This document shows, piece by piece, positions 4,200 through 59,257 of a stretch of DNA of 59,561 nt. The notes under the pieces were generated by a model that saw nothing but the letters and a program-made list of their open reading frames with translations, ran no database searches and was not told the DNA's origin. Position 1 is the first letter of the stretch. Each line of letters begins with the position of its first letter. Position numbers and translations under genes: made by a program. The DNA is taken from positions 1-59,561 of IMG/VR virus record IMGVR_UViG_3300034160_000048; one strand, 5' to 3'. The DNA is from a virus.

Positions 4200-4784
4200 G
4201 TGGAGTTGATCAAGCACATCAAGCGTAGCCAAATCGTGTCCGAGAACGATGATGGCACGGTGTCGTACATCACGGCAGCCGGGGAACTCGTGAGAGCGAA
4301 CCCGGACACGTTCGAAGTGATCGAGGATGCGGAGGAAGTGGAGGCACTCGGAGATGTTCCGACCCCCGACGTCCCCGCGAAGGCGAAGAGGGTCCGAGCC
4401 CCCCGCAAGGTGGCGAAGCCCAAGGAAGAGAAACCCAAGTCAGAGACAGGAGATAAGACGATGGCGAAGGCAAAGAAGAAGGCAGCGAAGAAGGCCGGAA
4501 ACGGCAGCGGCGCTGCGGTGCGGACGATCAGCGGCAAGACCGTTGATCTCAGCAAGTACGTGGCCGCGAAGGCCCCGGGCGGCGGCAAGTCGTTCAACAA
4601 CGGTGACGACGTCGCCACCAAGCTGGCGGGCAAGGACCTTGATTCGGTCTATTCGTACGCCGCGAAGACCCTCAAGGTCGAGGAGAAGGAACTCCGCTCG
4701 AAGTACAAGCACCTGAACCCGGGCATGCAGCGCATGAACCTGGGCAACCGGCTGCGCAAGGGCCTGAACGCCAAGGCGGCCTGA
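4200..4784 (+). CDS. Basic Lys/Ala-rich protein with a conserved C-terminal domain; candidate DNA-binding protein
   Basis: A 194-residue protein starting at GTG 4200 behind a GAGGAGA site. Residues 1-50 are acidic, about 60-100 are Lys/Ala/Pro-rich like histone H1 tails (MAKAKKKAAKKAGNG), and about 105-190 form a globular domain ending GMQRMNLGNRLRKG. The same domain ends the protein at 58709-59257, so they are paralogues. An in-frame ATG at 4461 with its own AGGAG site could yield a 107-residue short form lacking the acidic part. DNA or RNA binding is inferred from composition only. Confidence 0.65.
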   Translation: MELIKHIKRSQIVSENDDGTVSYITAAGELVRANPDTFEVIEDAEEVEALGDVPTPDVPAKAKRVRAPRKVAKPKEEKPKSETGDKTMAKAKKKAAKKAGNGSGAAVRTISGKTVDLSKYVAAKAPGGGKSFNNGDDVATKLAGKDLDSVYSYAAKTLKVEEKELRSKYKHLNPGMQRMNLGNRLRKGLNAKAA

Positions 4785-12163: not shown

Positions 12164-13995
12164 TGCCCTCGGTCGACTACCTGCTGTCGCTGCCCCGGCT
12201 GGCGCTCGACACGGAAACTACCGGCCTCGACTGGCAGCGCGACCGTGTATTTGGAATCGCGATGGCGTGGCGCGACACCGGGAAGATCGAGAGTATCTAC
12301 ATTGATCTGCGGGAAGGGCAGTGGCTGCGCTGGGCCCGGGACGTCCTGCCCCGGCTGCGGCATATCGTCAATCACAACATCAAGTTCGACTGGCACATGC
12401 TGCGGTCGATGAAGATCGAGCTGGCCCCCGGCGCGTGTGACTGCACGATGATCCGGGAGACGCTGATCGACGAGAACCAGTTCGAATACAACCTCGAGCG
12501 GGTGAGCCAGAAGTACCTGCACACCGGCAAGGTGAACATCTGGCAGGAACTTGCTGACCTATTCGGGGGAAAGCCGACCAAGGAGGCGCAGATAGGGAAC
12601 CTGTCGAAGGCCCCATCGGCACTCGTATCCAAGTACGCAACAGGGGACGCGGAGAATGCGCTACGCATCTGGGAACATCAGGAAGCACTACTTACAGCTG
12701 ACGATCTCGGAGTGGTTGCTGCCATGGAACGTAAGCTACTCCAGGTGGTTGCGGAGATGGAGCGGGGTGGCGTACGTGTTGATATGGACGCGGCTGAGCG
12801 AGCAGTATCCCTTATCGATGCGAACATGGCGACGGCTCAGAAAGCCTTGGATAGGGCCGCCGGTCGTCCCATCAACGCAAACTCCCCAGCGCAGGTTAAA
12901 GCGCTGCTCGGTGTGCATTGTGACGACAAAGGTGACTGGCGAACTCGTGACGGGTTACTTCTGGAGCCGACCGAGTCGGGCAAGAGCGGTGCGCTGCGTA
13001 CCGAAAAGCTCTATCAGTGCACCCTTCCTGAGGCGGCGCTTATCGCAGAACTACGAGGCGGCATTAAGGCGCGCGATGTCTTCCTGAAGAAGTACATCCT
13101 CCAGATGTCGGTCAATGGGTACGTGCACGCGAGCATCAACCAGACCAAGACCGAGGCGGGGGACGGCACCTACACCGGGCGGTTCTCGATCACGGAGCCC
13201 GCGCTGCAGCAGATCCACAAGCGCAATAAGAAGATGGCCGCAATCGTGCGGGCCTGTTTCCTGCCCGACGAGGGCTGCGAGTGGGGCTGCTGGGACTGGT
13301 CACAGAAGGACTTCCGGATCTTCGCGCACTATGTGAACGACCCCAAGATCAATTCCATCTACGAGAAAAACCCGCTCGCGGACTTTCACCGGGTGACCGC
13401 CGATTTGACCGGCCTGCCCCGGGACCCGGACCAGAAAACGGGCGGCGCGAACGCCAAGCAGATGAACCTTGGCCTCGTGTTCGGCATGGCCGCAGGGCGC
13501 ATGGCCAAGGAGATGAACCTGCCATTCACAACCGACGAGAGTGGGTACCTCAAGGCGGGCCCCGAGGCGGAGGCCCTGTTTGCCAAGTACCACAACAACA
13601 TCCCGGGCGTGCAGCAGCTCAAGAAGGCCGTGGGGTCCGTGGCCCGGAGCAGGGGACATATTGTAACCCAGCTTGGGCGGCGGCTTCACTTCCCGAACGG
13701 TGAGGGGGCATACAAGGCCGCCGGCATCCTGTTCCAGGCACAGGCGGCGGAGTCGATGAAGATCAAGATGTGCGAGATTTACGACATCATGCAGCAGCAG
13801 AAGGGGAGCCGGTTCCTGCTCCCGGTGCACGACGAGTTTGACTTTGCGCTGGGGCCCAACCGGGCCCCGACGTTTGACGCTGATATGACTGCGCTTTTGC
13901 AGAGGTTTGACGGGGACATCACCCCGCTCAAGTATCGAATTCCGATCCGCGCCGATTATGGCACGGGTCCTAACTGGTGGGAGGCGAGCAAGTGA
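12160..13995 (+). CDS. dpoZ: Family A DNA polymerase with 3'-5' exonuclease domain, DpoZ-type
   Basis: A 611-residue protein. The exonuclease domain has LALDTETTGLD (Asp17, Glu19), VNHNIKFDWHM and YATGDAENALRIW. The polymerase domain has motif A WDWSQKDFRIFAHY (Asp379), motif B NAKQMNLGLVFG (Lys433) and motif C VHDEFDFA (Asp558, Glu559), so both activities look intact. No 5' nuclease. Being fused into an overlapping operon with purZ, it is most likely the Z-DNA replicase DpoZ known from phage phiVC8. Relative to E. coli Pol I, the O-helix Phe762 and Tyr766 positions are Leu437 and Phe441 here, and motif A has Asp where Pol I has Glu710. Two adjacent ATG codons (12160, 12163) could start it. 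Confidence 0.85.
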   Translation: MMPSVDYLLSLPRLALDTETTGLDWQRDRVFGIAMAWRDTGKIESIYIDLREGQWLRWARDVLPRLRHIVNHNIKFDWHMLRSMKIELAPGACDCTMIRETLIDENQFEYNLERVSQKYLHTGKVNIWQELADLFGGKPTKEAQIGNLSKAPSALVSKYATGDAENALRIWEHQEALLTADDLGVVAAMERKLLQVVAEMERGGVRVDMDAAERAVSLIDANMATAQKALDRAAGRPINANSPAQVKALLGVHCDDKGDWRTRDGLLLEPTESGKSGALRTEKLYQCTLPEAALIAELRGGIKARDVFLKKYILQMSVNGYVHASINQTKTEAGDGTYTGRFSITEPALQQIHKRNKKMAAIVRACFLPDEGCEWGCWDWSQKDFRIFAHYVNDPKINSIYEKNPLADFHRVTADLTGLPRDPDQKTGGANAKQMNLGLVFGMAAGRMAKEMNLPFTTDESGYLKAGPEAEALFAKYHNNIPGVQQLKKAVGSVARSRGHIVTQLGRRLHFPNGEGAYKAAGILFQAQAAESMKIKMCEIYDIMQQQKGSRFLLPVHDEFDFALGPNRAPTFDADMTALLQRFDGDITPLKYRIPIRADYGTGPNWWEASK

Positions 13996-15098
13996 GAAGC
14001 AAGACAATTGTAACGGTACAGGACCTGCAGTTCGGCAGCACAGGAAAAGGGCTGATTGCGGGCAGTGTTGCGTGCGCATGGGAACCGGACACTGTAGTTA
14101 CGGCGTGGGGCCCGAACGCGGGGCACACTTTCCGCGACGGCGAGCTTAACATGATCACGACCATGTTGGCCAGCTCCTCGGTCGCCCCCAGCGTGCAGAA
14201 CATCCTCATTGGCCCCGGGTCGGTGGTCAACCTCGAGAATCTAGCGGCCGAGATCCGCGCCGTCGGGCCGTTGCTGTCGGGCAAGTGGTTGATTCTACAC
14301 CCACAGGCGGCGATCCTGCGGCCCGAGCACGCAATGGCGGAGAAGGCGTTGATCACCATCGGGTCCACCATGAAGGGGACTGCCGAAGCCGCGATCTCCA
14401 AGATGCGGCGCGGGACCAGTGCCACGGCGAAGCAGCTACAGCTCATGGTGCGCGAGCACTTGGAAGGCGTGCTCGATGAATTCGACGTCATGTTCAGCAT
14501 GGAAGAAAAGATGTATGACAAGTCCATCGACGTCAGCAGCCGTATGATTGTCGAGGGCGCGCAGGGCTTCTCGCTGGGCATCCACGGGCCGTTCTACCCT
14601 TATGGCACCAGCCGGGACATCAGCACCGCGCAGCTGTTTGCGGATTGCCGGATCCCGTTCCCGACGCAGGGCGAGAGGGTGGTCAATATTGGGTGCTGCC
14701 GCACTTACCCTATCCGCGTAGCTAACCGGTTCAACGACAAGGGCGAGATGGTCGGGACCAGCGGCGGGCACTACCCCGACCAAGACGAGCTTACATGGGA
14801 AGCCATCGGTCGCCCGGTGGAACTCACCACAGTTACGAAGCTCCCGCGCCGCGTGTTCAGCTTTTCAAATCTGCAGGTGGCGGAGGCGGCCCGGGTGATG
14901 GGCACGACCGAAATCGCGCTGACCTTCTGCGACTACATCGCGCCGAGGCCGGGCGAGGATCAGGGGTTGCCAAGGGCCGTCACGGCCTTCTCGGAGCGCA
15001 TCCGTCGAGCGACCGGCATCATGCCCTCCCTGTTCAGCTTCGGGCCCGACCGCGCCGACGTCATCGCCCGGACGGGCTCCGTGGCGCTGGGGGACTGA
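13992..15098 (+). CDS. purZ: PurZ, 2-aminoadenylosuccinate synthetase (PurA homologue)
   Basis: A 368-residue adenylosuccinate-synthetase relative. PurZ uses ATP or dATP to join aspartate to dGMP, and host PurB then gives dZMP. The N-terminal loop reads FGSTGKG, where PurA enzymes have GDEGKGK: the catalytic Asp is Ser16 here, which fits PurZ rather than housekeeping PurA. GPNAGHT keeps the conserved His region, and GTSGGHYPDQDELTW lies toward the C-terminus. Its length is below bacterial PurA (about 430), as in Z phages. GTG 13992 is chosen because GGGAGG lies 7 bases upstream and it overlaps the polymerase stop (GTGA). Confidence 0.9.
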   Translation: MRSKTIVTVQDLQFGSTGKGLIAGSVACAWEPDTVVTAWGPNAGHTFRDGELNMITTMLASSSVAPSVQNILIGPGSVVNLENLAAEIRAVGPLLSGKWLILHPQAAILRPEHAMAEKALITIGSTMKGTAEAAISKMRRGTSATAKQLQLMVREHLEGVLDEFDVMFSMEEKMYDKSIDVSSRMIVEGAQGFSLGIHGPFYPYGTSRDISTAQLFADCRIPFPTQGERVVNIGCCRTYPIRVANRFNDKGEMVGTSGGHYPDQDELTWEAIGRPVELTTVTKLPRRVFSFSNLQVAEAARVMGTTEIALTFCDYIAPRPGEDQGLPRAVTAFSERIRRATGIMPSLFSFGPDRADVIARTGSVALGD

Positions 15099-15099
15099 C

Positions 15100-15510
15100 A
15101 TGACGAGATTCTACGATCTTGACTGGAACAACATGCGCCGGGTGCAGCAGGCGATCACCGATTGGGCGGACTCGCAGTTCCCGGGCCGCACCGCCCAGCA
15201 CGCCCTGTCGAAACTGGTTCTCGAGGAAGTCCCGGAGCTGCTGCAGCACAAGAAGTTGCACGGCACCAAGGGGATCGACACGGAACTGGCCGACTGCTTC
15301 GTGTTGCTCATGGATCTGGCGTCGCTGTGGGGCGTGGATCTGCCCGCCGCGATCCGGGCCAAGATGATCATCAACGAGAAACGCGTCTGGAAGGTTGACC
15401 CCGACACAGGGCTCATGAACCACACCGACGGGGTGAAACCGCTGACGCGGGAAGAAATCCAGGAAGCGATTGTGCTGATCGAAGAAACTGAAGGAGGTTC
15501 CCATGACTAG
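15100..15510 (+). CDS. mazZ: MazZ, MazG-like (d)NTP pyrophosphohydrolase
   Basis: A 136-residue all-alpha protein with MazG-type metal ligands: LVLEEVPELLQ (EExxE) and TELADCFVLLMDLA (ExxD). In Z phages MazZ converts dGTP to dGMP, the substrate of PurZ, and can also attack dATP. The gene starts 1 base after purZ and overlaps datZ by 8 bases, and this gene order supports the MazZ assignment over a generic MazG protein. Confidence 0.85.
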   Translation: MTRFYDLDWNNMRRVQQAITDWADSQFPGRTAQHALSKLVLEEVPELLQHKKLHGTKGIDTELADCFVLLMDLASLWGVDLPAAIRAKMIINEKRVWKVDPDTGLMNHTDGVKPLTREEIQEAIVLIEETEGGSHD

Positions 15511-16099
15511 TCCCGAACTTAAGGCCCTGCTCAAACTGTCCACCGTCCCCCGCTGGGCGATTGTGGACATGAGCCGGCAGCAATCCGTGGCTGAGCACAG
15601 CTACCGGGTCTGGGCTATCGCCGCCGAGCTGTACAAGGTGTTGTACCCGGCGCCCCACAATCAGGTGGACGAAATGGCCACGGCCCGCTGGGCGCTGGTG
15701 CACGACGTCGAGGAGGCTTTCATGGGCGATACGCCCTCGACAGCCAAGGAAATCCTCGAAAGGGTGGCCCCCGGCGTGGGGCAGAAGTGGGTTGATGCGA
15801 TAATCCAAAAGGAGGTTCCAGGGGTCGCAGCGTTTGCCCGTGGCGTGAAAGGTTCGCCCCCGGGCCACGTGGTCAAGATCGCGGACATTCTGGAGGCCAT
15901 CCTGTTCACCTTTGACTACGCGGTGAACGCCGGGGAAAAGGTCCGGGTGCTCAATTTCCTGTACGCGCAGTTGGGCGCGGCCTGGAGAAAGGCGCAGGCC
16001 GACATGATTACAGCCGACTGGCTAGGGGCGGTCGATTTCCGAAACCAGCTGCTTGCGGCGGAGCCCGCCGTGGCTCGCATTGAGGTGGACTACCCATGA
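15503..16099 (+). CDS. datZ: DatZ, HD-domain dATP triphosphohydrolase
   Basis: A 198-residue HD phosphohydrolase of the YfbR type: SVAEHSYRV (His32), LVHDVEEAFMGD (His67-Asp68) and KIADILEAI (Asp128) supply the metal site. In Z phages DatZ destroys dATP, so adenine is kept out of the new DNA. An AAGGAGGTTCCC ribosome-binding site lies inside the end of mazZ. Together with purZ and dpoZ this completes the known Z-DNA set. Confidence 0.87.
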   Translation: MTSPELKALLKLSTVPRWAIVDMSRQQSVAEHSYRVWAIAAELYKVLYPAPHNQVDEMATARWALVHDVEEAFMGDTPSTAKEILERVAPGVGQKWVDAIIQKEVPGVAAFARGVKGSPPGHVVKIADILEAILFTFDYAVNAGEKVRVLNFLYAQLGAAWRKAQADMITADWLGAVDFRNQLLAAEPAVARIEVDYP

Positions 16100-50498: not shown

Positions 50499-50936
50499 TT
50501 AGACGAAAGCGATGACTTCCAGCGGATCGCAGGTTACTGCACCGAGGATGTCAAGGTCATTGAACAGCGCAAAAAGCGCCACCGCGCCCTCAGCCTTCGG
50601 GCCATGAGGGACTTCGAACTTGTCGCCACCGAATTTCGGGATACGAACGTAGTCGCCTTCCTTGCACCATGCGCCCTCGGGCCATGGGGTCATCTTCTCG
50701 CGGTTGTGGAAAGCCAGCGGCCCCAGCCCTACGACCTTGGCCACCTGCGTATTCCATGCCACGGTTTCCTGTGTCTCGGACGACAGGATGATGCCACCCT
50801 TAGTCTTTTTCTTGGCGCTGCGAATCTGGACCAGAACCCTCGAGCCGTAAGGCCGGAGTCCGGGATCGACAGCGGGGAACGCCTCTTCGAGGCTCATATC
50901 AAACTTTACAGCCGGTGCGAAGTTAACTGAACTCAT
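50499..50936 (-). CDS. GroES-like co-chaperonin
   Basis: A 145-residue protein. GLRPYGSRVLVQIRSAKKKT corresponds to the GroES N-terminal strands, KTKGGIILSSETQETVAW to the mobile loop with hydrophobic IIL at 49-51 that docks on GroEL, and QVAKVVGLGPLAF, GAWCKEGDYVRIPKFGGDKF to the following barrel strands. It is longer than GroES (97). Phages such as T4 (gp31) replace GroES to fold a large capsid protein; the head-module location suggests the same. Confidence 0.75.
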   Translation of the reverse strand: MSSVNFAPAVKFDMSLEEAFPAVDPGLRPYGSRVLVQIRSAKKKTKGGIILSSETQETVAWNTQVAKVVGLGPLAFHNREKMTPWPEGAWCKEGDYVRIPKFGGDKFEVPHGPKAEGAVALFALFNDLDILGAVTCDPLEVIAFV

Positions 50937-51199: not shown

Positions 51200-53869
51200 C
51201 TAGCTCCCGGGGTTGAGGCCAGTCCCCTTACTCACAGCCACCTTCTCGCCGCTCTCGATTTCCGCCGAGGCGATCTCCATCGCCGTCGTGTTGTCCTGCG
51301 TGTTGATCCGCTCCTTGGACTCGATCTGGGCTTGTGCAAGCACCGCTTCCTGCTGTAGGGCCTGCTGGTCATGCTGCAGCCGGGCGGCGGATTCCATACC
51401 CTTGTCGGCGGCCCGCTTGTCCTCGGCCCGCTGCCGGATCGCCTCGAGCTGCATTTCGTCCTGCGACTTCTTGCCACCCTCGACCAGCCGCAGCTGCATC
51501 TCGGATTCCTTCTCTTGCCTCCGCATCTGCGCTTCCTGATTGCGCTGAGCGAGTTCCGCCTGCTTGAGCTGCCCCTGCTGCTCGATGCTCTTCTGACGCA
51601 CCTGCATGTCGCCCTGATTCCGCTCGCGCTGGACCTGTGCCATGATCTCGGTGGACTTGGTCTGCGGGTCCTGACCCTGCGGCTGGTACTGCTGGACGAT
51701 CTGGATCGCGCTCTGGATGATGGGCGGCAGCTTGCCGAACATCTTGCCCGCCGACGCCACGATGTCGGTGGACGCCGTCGCGATCAACCTCTCGATCTCG
51801 TTCTTCGTATCCTTGTCCTCGATCTCCATGTATTTCTCGAGCGGCTTGCCCACAGCCTCCGAAGTGACACGATACACCTCGGTAACGTACCACATTACCA
51901 TGTGTTCCTTCAGGTGGTCGAGCGCCCGGGGCAGGAACGTCGGCGCGATGATGGGCAACTGACCCAGCATCGGGCTCGTTACGAAGTCAAGCAACGTCTG
52001 GATGTGCGCCAGATGGTCCTGCTCGGGGAATGCCGTTACCGGGCGGCCCAGCGCCATGGCGGCGTTTTCGTTCGCCGCGTTCATCTCCTTGGGCTCCGGG
52101 ACCGGGATCAACAGATCCTCAGGGTTTGCAACCCGCATCCGCTCGAGGAACATCTTCTCGACCTTGCGCAGATCGTAAATCTGCGGCAGCAGCGTTGAAC
52201 GCTGCAGGATGCTCTGCGTCTGCGCGAAGCGATGGGCATCGGACGGGATGCTTGGGTCGGACACCGGGATAACGTCGAGCGGCCCTTCCAGGTCCGACCG
52301 CTTGATCAGCAACTCGCCGGCTTCATCAAGGATTTCCTGTTCCTCGATGTACATCCGGTCAATGCGGTGCAGCACTCGCAGCGTCTGTGCCATGCTGTGA
52401 TGCATGCGGCCCATGATGTTCGAAATCACGGTCAGGCCCTGCTCGATCAGCGCCATCGTGGTGCCCACGGGCTGTGCCGGGTTACTGCCATCGGTGGCCA
52501 TGCTGTCGAAGGTGGTGCGTACCACATCGTCGGCTTCCCCGATCAGGAAGCCCATCAACTGGTACAGGACCGGGGACGGCGGATTGTACGGGAGCTGCAT
52601 CACAAGCTTCCGGATGTCGTCCGCCCCGACGCCGCCGTCCAGTTCCACGATCTCGGTCGGATTGAGCGTCTTGCTCTGGCCGCCGCTCGCCGCACCTTTC
52701 AGCTTCACCGCAGTGGGGAAGTTGTTGATGTGCGCGGAGTCCAACAGCGCCCGCAGCGACCCTGTGGTGCCCGCCGACAGGCCTCCGATCAACTGCACGA
52801 ACCCGAGGCGCGTTGCACCTTCCCACGGGACGAACGGCCATTCGATCAACCAGTGCATGCGCTCCTGCTTCTCGTCGATCTCCTCCCAATTGCGGATCAC
52901 CGACATGACTGAGTGGCTGGCCTCGTCAATACAGACGATGAACGGCAGCGGGCCTTCCTGCCCCTTCTCAACCTTGTCCAGATAGGTGTTAATCTCGTAC
53001 GTGCGCCGCAGCCCGTCCTCATTATACTGGTTCGAGGTCTTACCCGACACCTTATCCATCTGCTCGCCGGTCTTCGACTGCTCCGGGACCATCGACGGGG
53101 CCTGCAGGTCGACGTCGAGGTACAACCCGGACACGACGCGCTCGCGGTATTCGAACTCCGTGATGTCGTCGAGGAACGTGATGCGCTCGGCGGTGTAAAA
53201 ACTCGTGCAGGCATGGGGCAGCAACACCCGGTCCTCGGTGATCGAGCGACACGACGGACGCTTGAACCGGCCATTCCACACAATGCGCAGGTACGCAGCA
53301 CCGGCCAGTGATGTCTGCGTCAACACCTGTTCCAGCTCGTCGCGGAATTCCTGGATCTGATGCGTCAACTGCCAGTTGAAGAATCGTGCCTTGCGCTCGG
53401 ACTTTTCCAGTCGTGCCTTGGTGACACGACCCGGTATGAATGACTTCGCGGGCCCCATAGCCGGGAACACTTCCTTCATCGCCCGGGACTCGAAATCAAT
53501 AGCCGCCTTGGACAACATCGGGTGCACGACCTTGGAGGACCCGGTAAACGATGCGCCGCCGGGGGCGTCGTCCGACAGCCCGGTGCGCCGGATGCCTTCC
53601 GCGTAGCGCTCGTCACGCTTCTTGCGCGCCGCTTCGTCAAACTTCACTTTCTCGATCAGGTCGTTGGCGATCTTGTCCAACTTGGCCTGATCGAGCGTCA
53701 TAGCGAGGTTGTCGTAAAACCCCGAGTCCGCTGCGTTGGGCTCGCTGCCCTCCTCCGCCTCGTCCAGATCCACGACCGCGCCGCCGTCCTCTGTGTCCTC
53801 GGGCTCCGCTGCTGCCGGATTTTCGAGATCTTCCATGTTCTCGTCCAGATCGTCTTCCTTACGCGGCAT
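51200..53869 (-). CDS. Portal protein (P22-type, with long C-terminal coiled coil)
   Basis: An 889-residue protein. The core has SKVVHPMLSKAAIDFESRAM, QEFRDELEQVLTQTSLAGAA, GRFKRPSCRSITEDRVLLPH and RMHWLIEWPFVPWEGATRLG, typical of the large podovirus portal family. The last 170 residues (ERNQGDMQVRQKSIEQQGQL onward) are an uninterrupted Gln/Glu/Lys coiled coil comparable to the P22 portal barrel. Twelve copies would form the DNA entry ring. Its start overlaps the terminase end by 11 bases. Confidence 0.82.
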   Translation of the reverse strand: MPRKEDDLDENMEDLENPAAAEPEDTEDGGAVVDLDEAEEGSEPNAADSGFYDNLAMTLDQAKLDKIANDLIEKVKFDEAARKKRDERYAEGIRRTGLSDDAPGGASFTGSSKVVHPMLSKAAIDFESRAMKEVFPAMGPAKSFIPGRVTKARLEKSERKARFFNWQLTHQIQEFRDELEQVLTQTSLAGAAYLRIVWNGRFKRPSCRSITEDRVLLPHACTSFYTAERITFLDDITEFEYRERVVSGLYLDVDLQAPSMVPEQSKTGEQMDKVSGKTSNQYNEDGLRRTYEINTYLDKVEKGQEGPLPFIVCIDEASHSVMSVIRNWEEIDEKQERMHWLIEWPFVPWEGATRLGFVQLIGGLSAGTTGSLRALLDSAHINNFPTAVKLKGAASGGQSKTLNPTEIVELDGGVGADDIRKLVMQLPYNPPSPVLYQLMGFLIGEADDVVRTTFDSMATDGSNPAQPVGTTMALIEQGLTVISNIMGRMHHSMAQTLRVLHRIDRMYIEEQEILDEAGELLIKRSDLEGPLDVIPVSDPSIPSDAHRFAQTQSILQRSTLLPQIYDLRKVEKMFLERMRVANPEDLLIPVPEPKEMNAANENAAMALGRPVTAFPEQDHLAHIQTLLDFVTSPMLGQLPIIAPTFLPRALDHLKEHMVMWYVTEVYRVTSEAVGKPLEKYMEIEDKDTKNEIERLIATASTDIVASAGKMFGKLPPIIQSAIQIVQQYQPQGQDPQTKSTEIMAQVQRERNQGDMQVRQKSIEQQGQLKQAELAQRNQEAQMRRQEKESEMQLRLVEGGKKSQDEMQLEAIRQRAEDKRAADKGMESAARLQHDQQALQQEAVLAQAQIESKERINTQDNTTAMEIASAEIESGEKVAVSKGTGLNPGS

Positions 53870-55349
53870 ACGGATTTCCTCTCGGTCTTAATGTTTCTTC
53901 CTCGCGCCCCTTGAGATCGAGTTCGATCTGCTCGTCCTCAGTCGGCTTCGAGAATGTGGTGATGAATCGGCGCATGAAATAGTTGAGTGCCTGCGAGCAC
54001 GTATCAACGTAGTCGTCGTTCTCGGTCGTACCGGGGCCGAAGAAGGAGCAGATCTGGCCGATTGCCTTGTCTGCCCATGACCGGAACTCGCCCGGTCGCT
54101 TGTCCGACTCGACTGCCCAAACCCGGCCGTGGGAGAACATCGGTGTTATAGCGTGTAAACGTGCGAGTTTGTCCGCACGGCCGGGGTTGTACTTTTCCAT
54201 CAGGACGTTTTCCATCTGCATCATCTGGCGCAAGCTGATGCCGGAACCCTTGTCCTCGACCAGAATCAAATCGATTGCCTTGCCTGTCTGCACCCCGTAC
54301 TCCGCTGAGCTGTACGGGCTCGGGATCAGGGCAGAATTGATCAGGGGGCGGTCCGCTTCGCCGTAGGTTACGACCCGCTCCTCTCGCACCCGTTTCATCA
54401 GGGCGGGCAGGGCCAAATAGTCGTCCCACGCGTCGAGCATCATCACGTGAAGCTGCTTGCCAACCTGGAACAGCCCCCACACCTCACACGCCGTGGGGTC
54501 CGCTTCATGCGTCTTCTTGTCGAACGTCTTCTCGGTGTACGCGGTGTCCAGCGACATAATAATGTGGATAAACCGGGGCAACGGCTTCTTCGCCGGCCAC
54601 AGTTTCCACTGCGAGCGCTTGACAATTCCACCTTCCTCGGGGTCGATCAGGATTCCCTCGAGTTCCTGCCGCCCGATCTTGGTACCTTCGTACTTGGCTA
54701 TATCGTCGTAGAAGCTCTGTGCGAGGTTCGCCTTATTCTCGTACGTAGTTCCGTACGTAACAAGTGTCTTCTTGCCGTCCGCTGCGTCCACCAGTTCCCG
54801 GATCAGCGGCAACGGCTTCGGGGTCGTGGTCCACACGAATTGGGGGTTGGGCCCGAGGCGCAGGCCGAATTTCATCATGTCGTAGGTCATACGCATGTTT
54901 TGCCATGCTGCGACCTCGTCGCCCCACACCCGCGAATGCTGCGGACCGCGCAGCCGCTCGGGGCGCTCGGAACCGAACCCGCGAATCACCGCGCCGTTGG
55001 TCAAGTATATGATCAGCGCCGACTTGTTGTAGTCAGCAACCAGATTGTCTGGGAGGTATGCCAGCAGCCCGGTGGTGCCCTCAAAGCACGTGTAACGGAC
55101 GTCATCCAGCGTGGGGGCAATAACTGCGTTGAATGACCCGGGATCCGAGGCCGCCGCTATGCCCAGCCAGTTGGAGCCCGTGACGGTCTTGCCGAATCCT
55201 CGGCCTGCCATAATGCCCCAAGTCGACCAGCTGCCGACCGGGGCCTTCTGCTTGGGCCTCGCAGTCTTGTTCCAGGCAAGCTTCCAACGCAGCAGCGCCA
55301 GCTCTTCGGGCGAGAGCTGCGCTAACTGCTCTGCGAGTTCAGCGGTCAT
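53859..55349 (-). CDS. Terminase large subunit
   Basis: A 496-residue packaging motor. WGIMAGRGFGKTVTGSNWLG is the Walker A region (residues about 44-63), RVWGDEVAAW the Walker B with catalytic Glu, and IIMSLDTAYTEKTFDKK begins the RNase-H-like nuclease domain; later EDKGSGISLRQMMQ and CSFFGPGTTENDDYVDTCSQ fit its remaining acidic residues. It powers DNA packaging through the portal encoded next. ATGA overlap with the gene before. Confidence 0.88.
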   Translation of the reverse strand: MTAELAEQLAQLSPEELALLRWKLAWNKTARPKQKAPVGSWSTWGIMAGRGFGKTVTGSNWLGIAAASDPGSFNAVIAPTLDDVRYTCFEGTTGLLAYLPDNLVADYNKSALIIYLTNGAVIRGFGSERPERLRGPQHSRVWGDEVAAWQNMRMTYDMMKFGLRLGPNPQFVWTTTPKPLPLIRELVDAADGKKTLVTYGTTYENKANLAQSFYDDIAKYEGTKIGRQELEGILIDPEEGGIVKRSQWKLWPAKKPLPRFIHIIMSLDTAYTEKTFDKKTHEADPTACEVWGLFQVGKQLHVMMLDAWDDYLALPALMKRVREERVVTYGEADRPLINSALIPSPYSSAEYGVQTGKAIDLILVEDKGSGISLRQMMQMENVLMEKYNPGRADKLARLHAITPMFSHGRVWAVESDKRPGEFRSWADKAIGQICSFFGPGTTENDDYVDTCSQALNYFMRRFITTFSKPTEDEQIELDLKGREEETLRPRGNPYAA

Positions 55350-56228: not shown

Positions 56229-56651
56229 TTAATTGACTGAAGTGCTGCCCGGGGCCTGCATCGGAGGCTTCTCACCCGTGGCCACCATTTCCAGGATCTC
56301 GTTGATGACCTTCTGCTTCTCTGCCATCTCGATCGGACCACCGTTCTTGCCGGTGACTTCGATATTCTGGGCAGGGACCCACTTGGCACGGGCCTGTAGC
56401 CAGAACTTGGCCGCGTTCACATCACCCTTGAGGGCCTGCTTGAGCAGGGACCCACCGACCTTGGCGTTGGTCAGGGCGAGCCCATGCTTCAGTTCATTGA
56501 CATACGTCATCTTCACCGTGCCGGGGTCGGTCTTGAGTACGTACGCAATCTCCACTTCATCCAGCCCACAGGCGGCCATGCCTTCCACCATGTGCCGCGT
56601 CTTTGAAGTCGGTACGTGCGGGGCCACTTCGATGATTTCATGGCGGGACAT
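56229..56651 (-). CDS. Terminase small subunit
   Basis: A 140-residue protein. The N-terminal half has a helix-turn-helix-like region (TRHMVEGMAACGLDEVEIAY, LKTDPGTVKMTYVNELKHGL) and the second half AKFWLQARAKWVPAQNIEVT then GKNGGPIEMAEKQ, as in many phage TerS proteins. It would recognise the packaging site and recruit TerL. Position ahead of TerL supports the call. Confidence 0.72.
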   Translation of the reverse strand: MSRHEIIEVAPHVPTSKTRHMVEGMAACGLDEVEIAYVLKTDPGTVKMTYVNELKHGLALTNAKVGGSLLKQALKGDVNAAKFWLQARAKWVPAQNIEVTGKNGGPIEMAEKQKVINEILEMVATGEKPPMQAPGSTSVN

Positions 56652-56652
56652 A

Positions 56653-57018
56653 CTATGCCTCGTACGGGGTGAGGGGGACGGAATCGGCGGGGGCGCAATT
56701 CACGGAAGCATTGTAAAAGGGGCTCGGGGCGAGGGAAGTGTGAAACCCGACCCCAGACGGGTTGGACATCGACATCACCACAGTGGGAACATCCAGACGA
56801 CCCGTGGCACACGTGAACGGACTCACCCAAGGGGCTACAGGGGAGATGGGGGCAGCCGGGGGATAGGGCCAGTTCGGAACAAGGGGCGGGATGACCGGCT
56901 CTGTCTGCATGCTGCGGGCGCGCTCCAAAATCGCGGCGGCGTGCTGCTTGGTGATCGGCTGCTGACCGATGCCCTCGATTAACCCCTCGAGCCATGCGAC
57001 GTATTGCAGTGGAGTCAT
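56653..57018 (-). CDS. Unknown protein upstream of the terminase
   Basis: A 121-residue protein. Residues 1-40 look helical (MTPLQYVAWLEGLIEGIGQQ, QHAAAILERARSM), the rest is Pro-rich and disordered. It overlaps the previous gene (ATGA) and ends 2 bases before TerS. No family recognised. Confidence 0.5.
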   Translation of the reverse strand: MTPLQYVAWLEGLIEGIGQQPITKQHAAAILERARSMQTEPVIPPLVPNWPYPPAAPISPVAPWVSPFTCATGRLDVPTVVMSMSNPSGVGFHTSLAPSPFYNASVNCAPADSVPLTPYEA

Positions 57019-57194
57019 GGCGTGGGACCCAAGTCGGTGTACGGCTGCTCGATGACAATACGCGAGGAACAGACGTCACACGTAAAGATTGTGGAGATGG
57101 AGGTGGGGGGACCCGGGGCAACTTCGGCTGAAGTTGGCTTCATGTCGAAAGCCCCGTCCCAGCCATGGGAGATGATGCACGTGGGACACTTCAT
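57015..57194 (-). CDS. Small zinc-ribbon protein, first gene of the late operon
   Basis: A 59-residue protein starting MKCPTCIISHGWDGAFDMKP, with a second Cys pair in TCDVCSSR, giving a CxxC...CxxC ribbon. GAGGAA lies 6 bases before the ATG. A longer form from an ATG at 57269 would add a hydrophobic leader ending in Cys, but its start signal is poor. First gene downstream of the minus-strand TTGGCACG element. Confidence 0.55.
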   Translation of the reverse strand: MKCPTCIISHGWDGAFDMKPTSAEVAPGPPTSISTIFTCDVCSSRIVIEQPYTDLGPTP

Positions 57195-57430
57195 GTCAAA
57201 TTCCTCAAAGCGACATGTGCCGGGGGACCCAAGAAGGACCGCGAAAGCCAAGGTTACAGGTCGAATACTCATGGCCCTCGGTAGCCCCCCCAGCGATGGG
57301 ACCCGGCGGTCGTCGCTCGTTTTCGGTTGTGCAGTTTCTTTAACGCTCCTCGGCATCTTACCACAGCGTGGCCCTCGGCACAAGTCCTTCCTCCCCCGAT
57401 GACCGACCTGTGGTTACTCCCCTCCATCGG

Positions 57431-57446
57431 GCAACCCCCGTGCCAA
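57431..57446 (-). promoter_or_regulatory. Sigma-54-like promoter element facing the late genes
   Basis: On the minus strand TTGGCACG-GGGG-TTGC, then C: an exact match to the sigma-54 consensus TGGCACG-N4-TTGC. It would start a transcript about 225 bases before the first late gene. Confidence 0.55.
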
Positions 57447-57562
57447 ATCGTCGATTGTGCAACGCACAACCCACGACCACGGCCACGGGTCGGTTGTTGC
57501 CGGGTTACCACAAGGGTTGTGGTAAGAGGGCAACGCAACCACGACCACAGGGCGGGCGTTGC

Positions 57563-57578
57563 TTGGCACGCGTCTTGC
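57563..57578 (+). promoter_or_regulatory. Sigma-54-like element 1
   Basis: TTGGCACG-CGTC-TTGC on the plus strand, exact core match. No gene follows for more than 1.1 kb. Confidence 0.5.
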
Positions 57579-57674
57579 CCCCCACGACCGACGTACACGA
57601 CCGAAGGACGGACGCCCCGGGGCACGGGCCTTGCCGCCCCCTCCCCACGTGCCTTGCCGCAGGACGGACAACCC

Positions 57675-57690
57675 TTGGCACGGGGCTTGC
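57675..57690 (+). promoter_or_regulatory. Sigma-54-like element 2
   Basis: TTGGCACG-GGGC-TTGC on the plus strand. A weaker copy (GGCACG-GGCC-TTGC) lies between elements 1 and 2 at 57621-57634, giving about 56-bp spacing. Confidence 0.5.
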
Positions 57691-57795
57691 CACAACCGAC
57701 CGGGGGCAGGGAGAGGGCTCTTGGTGCACCGCAACACGGACCGAGGGCCGGGCGTTGCACAGGAACGAGGGGGTACGAGGGGGAACACGGGGCAC

Positions 57796-57811
57796 TTGGC
57801 ACGTAGCTTGC
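57796..57811 (+). promoter_or_regulatory. Sigma-54-like element 3
   Basis: TTGGCACG-TAGC-TTGC on the plus strand, again followed by C. Confidence 0.5.
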
Positions 57812-58266
57812 CGGGTTGTGAGTGTCTCGTGGTGCCTCCCGTACCCCCACGGGGGGGGGGTCGCCACCTGCAGGGGAGGTCGTGAAGGAGACTCTCCCCC
57901 CCAGCAGCCAGCGTGTCTTCGTCCCCTCCCCCCCTCCCGGGGGTGTCCGGGGTACCCGTCGTGTCTCACACCGGTCCCCGTCGTGTCGCACGTGTTCCCC
58001 TGCTCGTCCCACTCGGCAGGGGGGGTCCGGCACGTGTGCCCCCTCGTACCTCGCGTTCCCCTCGGACGACTCTGCAGGGGAGGGTGGAGTACAGCCGGAG
58101 GGGAACGAGGGGGTACGGGCCGGGAACGGCTGGGGGTGAGTACACCGCGACCCCTCCACGCGTTCCCTCACAACCTACTTGACACCGGGCCCTCGGCGTG
58201 CCTCCCCCTCTCGGGCCTCTCCTCGAATACTTGACGCCGCCCTCAGGTTGTGCGTACCCCTCTCGG

Positions 58267-58285
58267 ACGACCGCAGGATGGTCGT
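58267..58285. repeat. 19-bp dyad element, copy 1
   Basis: ACGACC-GCAGGAT-GGTCGT: perfect 6-bp inverted arms around a 7-base centre. Confidence 0.65.
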
Positions 58286-58386
58286 TCTCCCGTGCCTCCG
58301 GTTGTCACGGGCGGACTGGCCCGCTACTACTGTGGGGATCCCCCTGCAGCCCTCTCCCGCGGCCTCCGGTTGTCTTCGAGAACCTG

Positions 58387-58405
58387 ATGACCGCACGATG
58401 GTCGT
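58387..58405. repeat. 19-bp dyad element, copy 2
   Basis: ATGACC-GCACGAT-GGTCGT: arms match in five of six pairs. Confidence 0.6.
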
Positions 58406-58423
58406 TCCCGCATCCTACACTTG

Positions 58424-58442
58424 ACAACCGCAGGACGGTTGT
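58424..58442. repeat. 19-bp dyad element, copy 3, overlapping a TTGACA
   Basis: ACAACC-GCAGGAC-GGTTGT: perfect arms. The left arm shares bases with TTGACA at 58421-58426, as an operator over a -35 box would. Confidence 0.65.
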
Positions 58443-58578
58443 ACGCACCGCACACAGCTCGGCCTGTGCCCGCTGGCACGCTGTGTGCCAAGCCTACCGC
58501 TCGTCGGCTGGCGCTTGACAGCCTGTACAGTCTGTGCTACGCGTGCGCGCGCTCCTTCTCTGTGCGCGTCCCCGGGCC

Positions 58579-58597
58579 CTGTCCGCAGGACGGTTGT
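58579..58597. repeat. 19-bp dyad element, copy 4 (degenerate left arm)
   Basis: CTGTCC-GCAGGAC-GGTTGT: centre and right arm identical to copy 3. A further GCAGGACGG core occurs at 57659-57667. Confidence 0.5.
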
Positions 58598-58622
58598 GCC
58601 CGCTGCCACCGCCCGAAACTAC

Positions 58623-58651
58623 TTGACCCCCACCCCAGCCCGTGGTACAAT
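58623..58651 (+). promoter_or_regulatory. Near-consensus sigma-70 promoter
   Basis: TTGACC, 17-base spacer, TACAAT, with a TGG extended -10. It stands about 50 bases upstream of the basic-protein gene and is the last of five plus-strand TTGAC hexamers (58179, 58231, 58421, 58515, 58623). Confidence 0.78.
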
Positions 58652-58708
58652 GGTCGTGTTGGGGGGCGCAGTGCTCCCCGTGCCGACCAACCAATAGAGG
58701 ATAGCCAA

Positions 58709-59257
58709 GTGAACGCAACCCAGACCCAGACCACGCCCGTTGCGACCCCGGCTGCAGCCGTCGTCGCTGCCGCCCTCAACGCCAAGCCCGCTGCCCGCGC
58801 CGCGCAGTCCCCGGCCGAGCGCAAGATCGCGAAGGCCGCGAAGGCCCTTGAGCGCGCCGAGGCCAAGGCCCGCATCTCGGCCCGCAAGGCCGCCGACAAG
58901 GCCGCCCGTGCCGCCCGGAAGGCCGCCGCGAAGGCCGCGAAGCCTGCCCATGCCCCCAAGGCCAAGCGCGACCCCAACGCGCCACTGATCAAGCGGATCG
59001 GGGACACGCGCCACGACCTCAGCCGCTACCAGTCAGCCAAGTCGGCCTCCGGCAACGCGTCGCTCGACTGCGGCGACAGCCTCGCGGTCAAGCTGCGCGG
59101 CCTCAGCCTCGACGACGTCTACAAGCTGGCGTCCAAGGAACTGCGCGAGCCGCAGACCGCCCTGCGTGCCAAGTACGCCCACCTGAACGTGGGAATGCAG
59201 CGCATGAACCTCGGCAACCGCATCCGTGGCGCGATGGCCGAGGGCACCGAGGAGTAA
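58709..59257 (+). CDS. Histone H1-like Lys/Ala-rich protein, paralogue of the 4.2-kb gene
   Basis: A 182-residue protein starting at GTG 58709 behind TAGAGGATA. Residues about 30-95 are an Ala/Lys/Arg-rich tail (KAARAARKAAAKAAKPAHAP) like bacterial or eukaryotic H1, and about 95-182 carry the domain DLSRYQ to KYAHLNVGMQRMNLGNRIRG shared with the protein at 4200-4784. It is under a strong promoter, so is probably abundant and early. It may bind DNA, RNA or compact the genome; this is inference. Confidence 0.68.
   Translation: MNATQTQTTPVATPAAAVVAAALNAKPAARAAQSPAERKIAKAAKALERAEAKARISARKAADKAARAARKAAAKAAKPAHAPKAKRDPNAPLIKRIGDTRHDLSRYQSAKSASGNASLDCGDSLAVKLRGLSLDDVYKLASKELREPQTALRAKYAHLNVGMQRMNLGNRIRGAMAEGTEE

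Follow-up and report, generated by a model that had tools for sequence, protein, structure and literature searches.

Clustered sigma-54-like sites upstream of the terminase operon of a tailed phage, possibly a decoy for host regulators

The window analysed here, a whole virus record of 59,561 nucleotides (IMG/VR IMGVR_UViG_3300034160_000048), carries upstream of its terminase operon a noncoding array of four exact sites of sigma-54 type; similar clusters, for sigma-54 or other host regulators, were found in about 240 other viral sequences. The window array would be one member of a set of binding-site islands lying upstream of the terminase operon in a broad group of tailed phages. That these islands are decoys titrating host regulators, sigma-54 in the present case, is a reading that we hold with as much doubt as confidence.

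Results

The array of the window

The motif TTGGCACG-N4-TTGCC occurs in four exact copies, all within 57430-57812 and none elsewhere in the genome, where the remaining matches all carry two mismatches (Table 1). The GG-N10-GC core and TGGCACG-N4-TTGC are present at all four sites; for the latter, a first-order Markov model predicts 0.00125 occurrences over the 1.5 kb of the gap and 0.065 over the window. Position -11 is a C, and not the A or T of the consensus TGGCAYR-N4-TTGCW. A sequence-only reading had previously described three plus-strand sites and one minus-strand site, all with an N4 spacer, and had equated their fixed part with the -24/-12 element of sigma-54: the four sites were all found again, and the position-matrix scan that it called for, with 42 E. 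coli sigma-54 ChIP-seq sites, ranks them as the four best matches of the window. The degenerate copy at 57619 lies midway between the sites at 57563 and 57675, so that three sites are exactly 56 bp apart. One site points left, toward the terminase and late operon, and three point right, toward the operon starting at 58709.

The gap separating these two operons has 67% G+C and many repeats; its open reading frames (e.g. 57015-57383 and 57269-58171 on the minus strand, 57822-58139 on the plus strand) lack homologues in the syntenic relatives. Several near-consensus sites are clustered in noncoding DNA, as in decoy arrays. A sigma-70-type promoter stands between the array and the rightward operon, 0.1 promoter-like site being expected by chance in the region scanned, and such promoters occupy the same place in the loci read by eye. 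We found no NtrC, Fur or DnaA site in the window: where a sigma-54 promoter would have its enhancer, about 80-200 bp upstream of the start, there is no NtrC dyad, although the distance would suit the perfect dyad at 57505-57525. Another dyad, ACGACCGCAGGATGGTCGT, follows the pattern ACRACC-N7-GGTYGT, sits near the sigma-54 sites and TTGACA-like boxes, and is nearly unique to the window phage among the loci searched.

Table 1. Features of the window
Feature	Position	Strand	Remarks
PurZ-like synthetase (phrog_1211)	13977-15098	+	Ser replacing the usual PurA Asp (QFGSTGKG)
dATP triphosphohydrolase/DatZ-like HD protein (phrog_7076)	15503-16099	+	
Phage co-chaperonin GroES-like protein	50499-50936	-	Inside the structural operon
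Terminase large subunit (phrog_38)	53859-55349	-	
Terminase small subunit (phrog_309)	56229-56651	-	
Array-bearing gap	57019-58708		Between leftward late operon and rightward operon
Sigma-54 -24/-12 site TTGGCACGGGGGTTGCC	57430-57446	-	Faces terminase/late operon; exact match and E. coli matrix
Perfect 21-bp dyad TTACCACAAGGGTTGTGGTAA	57505-57525		Spaced like an enhancer from each of the two divergent sigma-54 sites (57431 -, 57563 +)
Sigma-54 site TTGGCACGCGTCTTGCC	57563-57579	+	Exact match and E. coli matrix
Degenerate copy GGGGCACGGGCCTTGCC (= GGGGCACG-N4-TTGCC)	57619-57635	+	56-bp register
Sigma-54 site TTGGCACGGGGCTTGCC	57675-57691	+	Exact match and E. coli matrix
Sigma-54 site TTGGCACGTAGCTTGCC	57796-57812	+	Exact match and E. 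coli matrix
Operator-like dyad ACGACCGCAGGATGGTCGT	58267-58285		Copies 58387-58405, 58424-58442; imperfect 57541-57559
Sigma-70-type promoter TTGACC-17-TACAAT	58623-58651	+	Ahead of rightward operon
First gene of rightward operon (phrog_8941)	58709-59257	+	GTG start; N-terminus rich in Lys/Ala; syntenic homologue in L152 and L204

Specificity of the sites

The searches being built on the sigma-54 consensus, it is the positions left free by them that carry information. We gathered 292 exact sites in 75 non-redundant loci; array sites are rich in C or T at -27 and in A or T at -11. Those with one mismatch are changed at -21 (58 sites, all C to T), at -20 (21 sites, mostly G to A), in few cases at -26 and -15, and never at -25, -24 and -13. 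This positional tolerance follows that of the 42 E. coli sigma-54 ChIP-seq sites (PMC4591121), with a rank correlation of 0.82 (p=0.002). Of the 42 E. coli intergenic sites just one matches perfectly. In the phage arrays about 142 sites are exact versus 103 with one mismatch, once the two selected sites per locus are discounted. Such an abundance of perfect sites suggests a selection for affinity, and sigma-54 specificity is well supported. The alternative of a phage factor binding the GGCA/TGCC dyad loses ground: the motif is asymmetric, and after TTGC, at -11, 81% of the array sites have A or T instead of the C of the dyad, so that we rejected the palindromic reading.

A class of viral arrays

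Dense arrays are nearly restricted to viral sequences. The three-site pattern matched 50 viral stretches, versus five in 84,980 bacterial and archaeal genomes; four of these five are simple tandem repeats with near-identical spacers, and the single convincing match, a diverged dense array on a Dadabacteria MAG contig (L238, 4015-4086), may lie on a phage contig that was assigned to the genome in binning. In viral contigs, two exact consensus sites 85-115 bp apart were found in 117 stretches, against two for the reversed pattern, and the scans for convergent and divergent pairs returned 108 and 64 stretches. Taken together, these scans amount to 185 non-redundant loci, and in 91 of these a stretch of 400 bp holds four or more sites, with a maximum of 11; the loci were picked by consensus patterns, so that prevalence is not estimable from them, and related ones were thinned by shared k-mers only, so that as counts of independent origins the numbers are upper bounds. 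In 50 array-bearing records, many array records being fragments, the sites are locally clustered and matches to reversed patterns are nearly absent.

Neighbouring sites on the same strand are at least 17 bp apart, preferentially 24-28 bp; convergent pairs are mostly separated by 18-22 bp, with 3-8 bp between the -12 elements, and divergent pairs by 20-25 bp. Sites lie on both strands in 49 of the first 99 non-redundant loci. At 17-22 bp the sites are packed more closely than a pair of sigma-54 holoenzymes is expected to allow, so that holoenzyme would seem unable to occupy all of them at once, and ordinary promoters at such distances would interfere with each other. The N4 spacers of convergent pairs are not complementary beyond chance: we thus rejected inverted repeats or hairpins and take the pairs for protein sites. 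A simple 10-bp helical phasing was also discarded, the spacings showing no convincing period.

The nearest named relatives are the Caulobacter phages RW, KcrB, RLK and GB2A, whose TerL is about 50% identical. No named relative with an array and no cultured carrier was found, and neither RW nor GB2A, the two scanned, contains a matching site; sigma-54 sites are also absent from 42 of 44 close capsid relatives. In the gap of RW syntenic to the window array (L006, 2820-2880) there are two copies of TTTTGGCACT-N5-(G/A)TGCC(G/A)TAA, repeated in the terminal redundancy, which keep the GG-N10-GC spacing and are also palindromes; being imperfect dyads, they were not counted as an array. The identifiers of two contigs, L540 (IMGVR_UViG_2713897315) and L372 (2547132079), may be those of isolate genomes, which would then provide a host for an NtrC or a sigma-54 island.

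Position, orientation and synteny

Of the 39 loci that have a related TerL within 6 kb, 36 carry the array on its upstream side. The two closest relatives, L152 and L204 (TerL 65% and 61% identical), keep the order TerS, array, early gene, despite a diverged gap sequence. In a separate clade of 38 loci, with arrays of 3 to 12 sites, conservation is 0.65 at motif positions versus 0.47 for the rest of the gap. The phrog_8941 gene adjoins the array in the window, L152, L204, L165, L143 and L216; the window has two paralogues (58709-59257 and 4200-4784) with a conserved HLNxGxxxMNxxN core, the Lys/Ala-rich N-terminus belonging to the first.

Near TerL, 143 sites point away from it versus 51 toward it; counted by locus outside the best-sampled clade, the ratio is 17:6 (p=0.035). 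While the sigma-54 specificity proposed by the sequence-only reading stands, the control of late genes by sigma-54 that it considered is not favoured: three of the four window sites face away from the late operon, like 143 of the 194 sites in arrays upstream of TerL, both strands are used in the two syntenic arrays, of 6 and 13 sites, and the convergent -12 elements so frequent in the class are unlike promoters.

NtrC, Fur and other dyads

With the sigma-54 sites masked, the top dyad of an unsupervised search around the arrays is TGCACCA-N3-TGGTGCA (26 near arrays, 0.4 expected), which we take to be the NtrC enhancer from its match to the well-known consensus, as we do for Fur boxes (16 versus 0.7 expected). 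Also enriched are AGTGAG-N2-CTCACT, GTAAG-N2-CTTAC and GTCAC-N3-GTGAC. When only noncoding DNA is compared, NtrC and these three dyads are still enriched, Fur more weakly. Sites for sigma-54, NtrC and Fur are interleaved in L172, L099 and L154, and NtrC dyads are also present in the sister phages L152 and L204. They keep no fixed distance to the sigma-54 sites, show no preference for -80 to -200 and often overlap the predicted start.

Reciprocally, a pattern of two NtrC dyads matched 108 viral stretches, 59 of them non-redundant, with up to 14 dyads. These NtrC arrays are upstream of TerL in all 43 loci where a TerL of the same family was detected: the NtrC motif takes the equivalent slot instead of sigma-54, beside the same TerL family. 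Strict sigma-54 sites are absent from 50 of the 59 and present in nine; around NtrC arrays sigma-54 sites are enriched 25-fold and Fur 9-19-fold. In L499 (8540-8760), L510 (1710-1960) and L539 (3925-4060) the NtrC dyads alternate with AGTRAG-NN-CTYACT dyads. We make no claim for DnaA boxes: near sigma-54 arrays they are enriched, but so is the reversed control, which near NtrC arrays exceeds the DnaA count.

Search for a phage-encoded reader

No enhancer-binding activator had been seen in the window, and indeed it encodes neither PF00158 nor RpoN (PF04552). In 50 array records the PF00158 AAA+ domain is not found above cut-off, and in 50 the sigma-54 DNA-binding domain PF04552 is not found, so that a phage-encoded activator or RpoN was rejected. 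No protein family is general among 25 array genomes, and a shared phage reader was set aside: the widest is the PolA-type polymerase (19/25), followed by TerL and PurZ (9/25 each). The phrog_8941 protein was also rejected (8 of 45 array phages, 1 of 33 without arrays, not significant). The window TerS detects only those of L204/L205, L152, L321 and L077, and 38 other array loci have a different TerS.

Other genes of the window

The window also encodes a Mu gpT-like major capsid protein, a PolA-type DNA polymerase, a primase and helicases. Its PurZ-like and DatZ-like genes suggest that this is probably a phage with a 2-aminoadenine (Z) genome. PurZ/PurA-like genes are commoner in array phages (12 of 50) than in those that have no array (1 of 38; Fisher p=0.005). 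As Z:T pairs are harder to melt, a link between the Z genome and the ATP-driven melting by sigma-54 is conceivable.

Discussion

The window sites are probably recognition sites for the host sigma-54 (RpoN) RNA polymerase, in islands whose content would vary: sigma-54 in the window, sigma-54 and NtrC in its sister phages, NtrC, Fur and other dyads elsewhere. Replication of the phage DNA would set hundreds of sites in competition with host promoters; the sigma-54 holoenzyme might then be held in closed complexes, silent because no activator is supplied, and the host sigma-54 regulon be damped. Arrays for different regulators, exchangeable in the same slot and deprived of activators and of a consistent promoter geometry, are most readily accounted for by decoys; binding, titration and a benefit to the phage are inferred. 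The wider proposal, that exchangeable "regulator sponges" for sigma-54, NtrC, Fur and others stand upstream of the terminase in many tailed phages and reprogram host physiology, is more tentative, and we lean slightly against it. Several observations count against decoys. The packing looks too tight for full simultaneous occupancy by holoenzyme; decoys should be independent of orientation, and half of the loci examined have sites on both strands, yet there is a bias away from TerL for which a pure decoy would have no use. The window is without NtrC, Fur and DnaA sites, nearly all capsid relatives are without sites, and no cultured carrier was found.

The sites might instead be sigma-54 promoters in actual use, triggered by a host activator such as NtrC and letting the phage sense the nitrogen state of the host, which would drive mainly the rightward operon. 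NtrC is a classical activator of sigma-54, and its dyads are enriched near arrays, including those of both sister phages; the sites match sigma-54 and in majority face the operon opposite to the terminase. Such promoters would hardly be placed on both strands in half of the loci, nor with -12 elements 3-8 bp apart; the NtrC dyad is missing from the window and elsewhere often overlaps the predicted start, most NtrC arrays (50/59) have no strict sigma-54 site, and sigma-70 promoters are present downstream of the arrays. We regard this explanation as rather unlikely. Less probable still would be sites for a phage protein, either TerS in a packaging region of cos/pac type or a regulator mimicking sigma-54 specificity. 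The location just upstream of terS is the one expected, and the tight spacing suits a protein smaller than RNA polymerase; a packaging repeat should follow the TerS family, whereas one motif here accompanies mutually undetectable TerS proteins. No protein family is general in the array phages, none of the 50 records has an RpoN domain, the tolerance profile tracks that of sigma-54, and NtrC dyads occupy the equivalent place in other phages, so that such a protein would have to reproduce the specificity of host regulators. Finally, a GC-rich gap with many repeats could generate motifs by chance or composition, but four sites were observed where about a thousandth of one is expected, two sister phages have syntenic arrays and reversed patterns are nearly empty: the controls already refute this possibility, to which we give practically no credit.

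If the decoy reading is true, phages reprogram their host not by proteins alone but also by DNA decoys directed against the global regulators of nitrogen and iron and against an alternative RNA polymerase; the islands, which can be found by pattern, would then report the host regulators relevant to infection in uncultured communities. If the sites are promoters, the nitrogen control of the host would extend to a large group of phages, and of this too we found no description.

Comparison with known systems

Bacterial sigma-54 promoters, such as the E. coli set (PMC4591121), share with the arrays the consensus YTGGCAYR-N4-TTGCW and its positional tolerance. They are normally solitary, imperfect, oriented toward one gene and paired with an enhancer, whereas the phage arrays contain many near-perfect copies, on both strands and down to 17 bp apart. 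Some phages disable the sigma-54 RNA polymerase with proteins, P7 of Xp10 (PMC5053324) and Ocr of T7 (PMC7064336). The host sigma-54 holoenzyme would be the common target; these proteins act at the sigma-core interface, while the agent of the arrays would be DNA sites. The cosB of lambda and pac sites are repeats bound by terminase. They resemble the arrays as repeated sites just upstream of terS; the motif of the arrays, however, is independent of which TerS family is present and is identical to sites of host sigma-54 or NtrC. The chromosomal datA locus titrates DnaA. Decoy arrays for transcription factors have also been synthesised in E. coli (PMC7826281). In both cases, as in the phage islands, several high-affinity sites gathered in a small noncoding segment could titrate a regulator; in the open-access papers covered we found no report of a natural phage decoy element of this kind. 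The regulator-site islands described here differ from these two in being phage-borne, multi-regulator and fixed upstream of the terminase.
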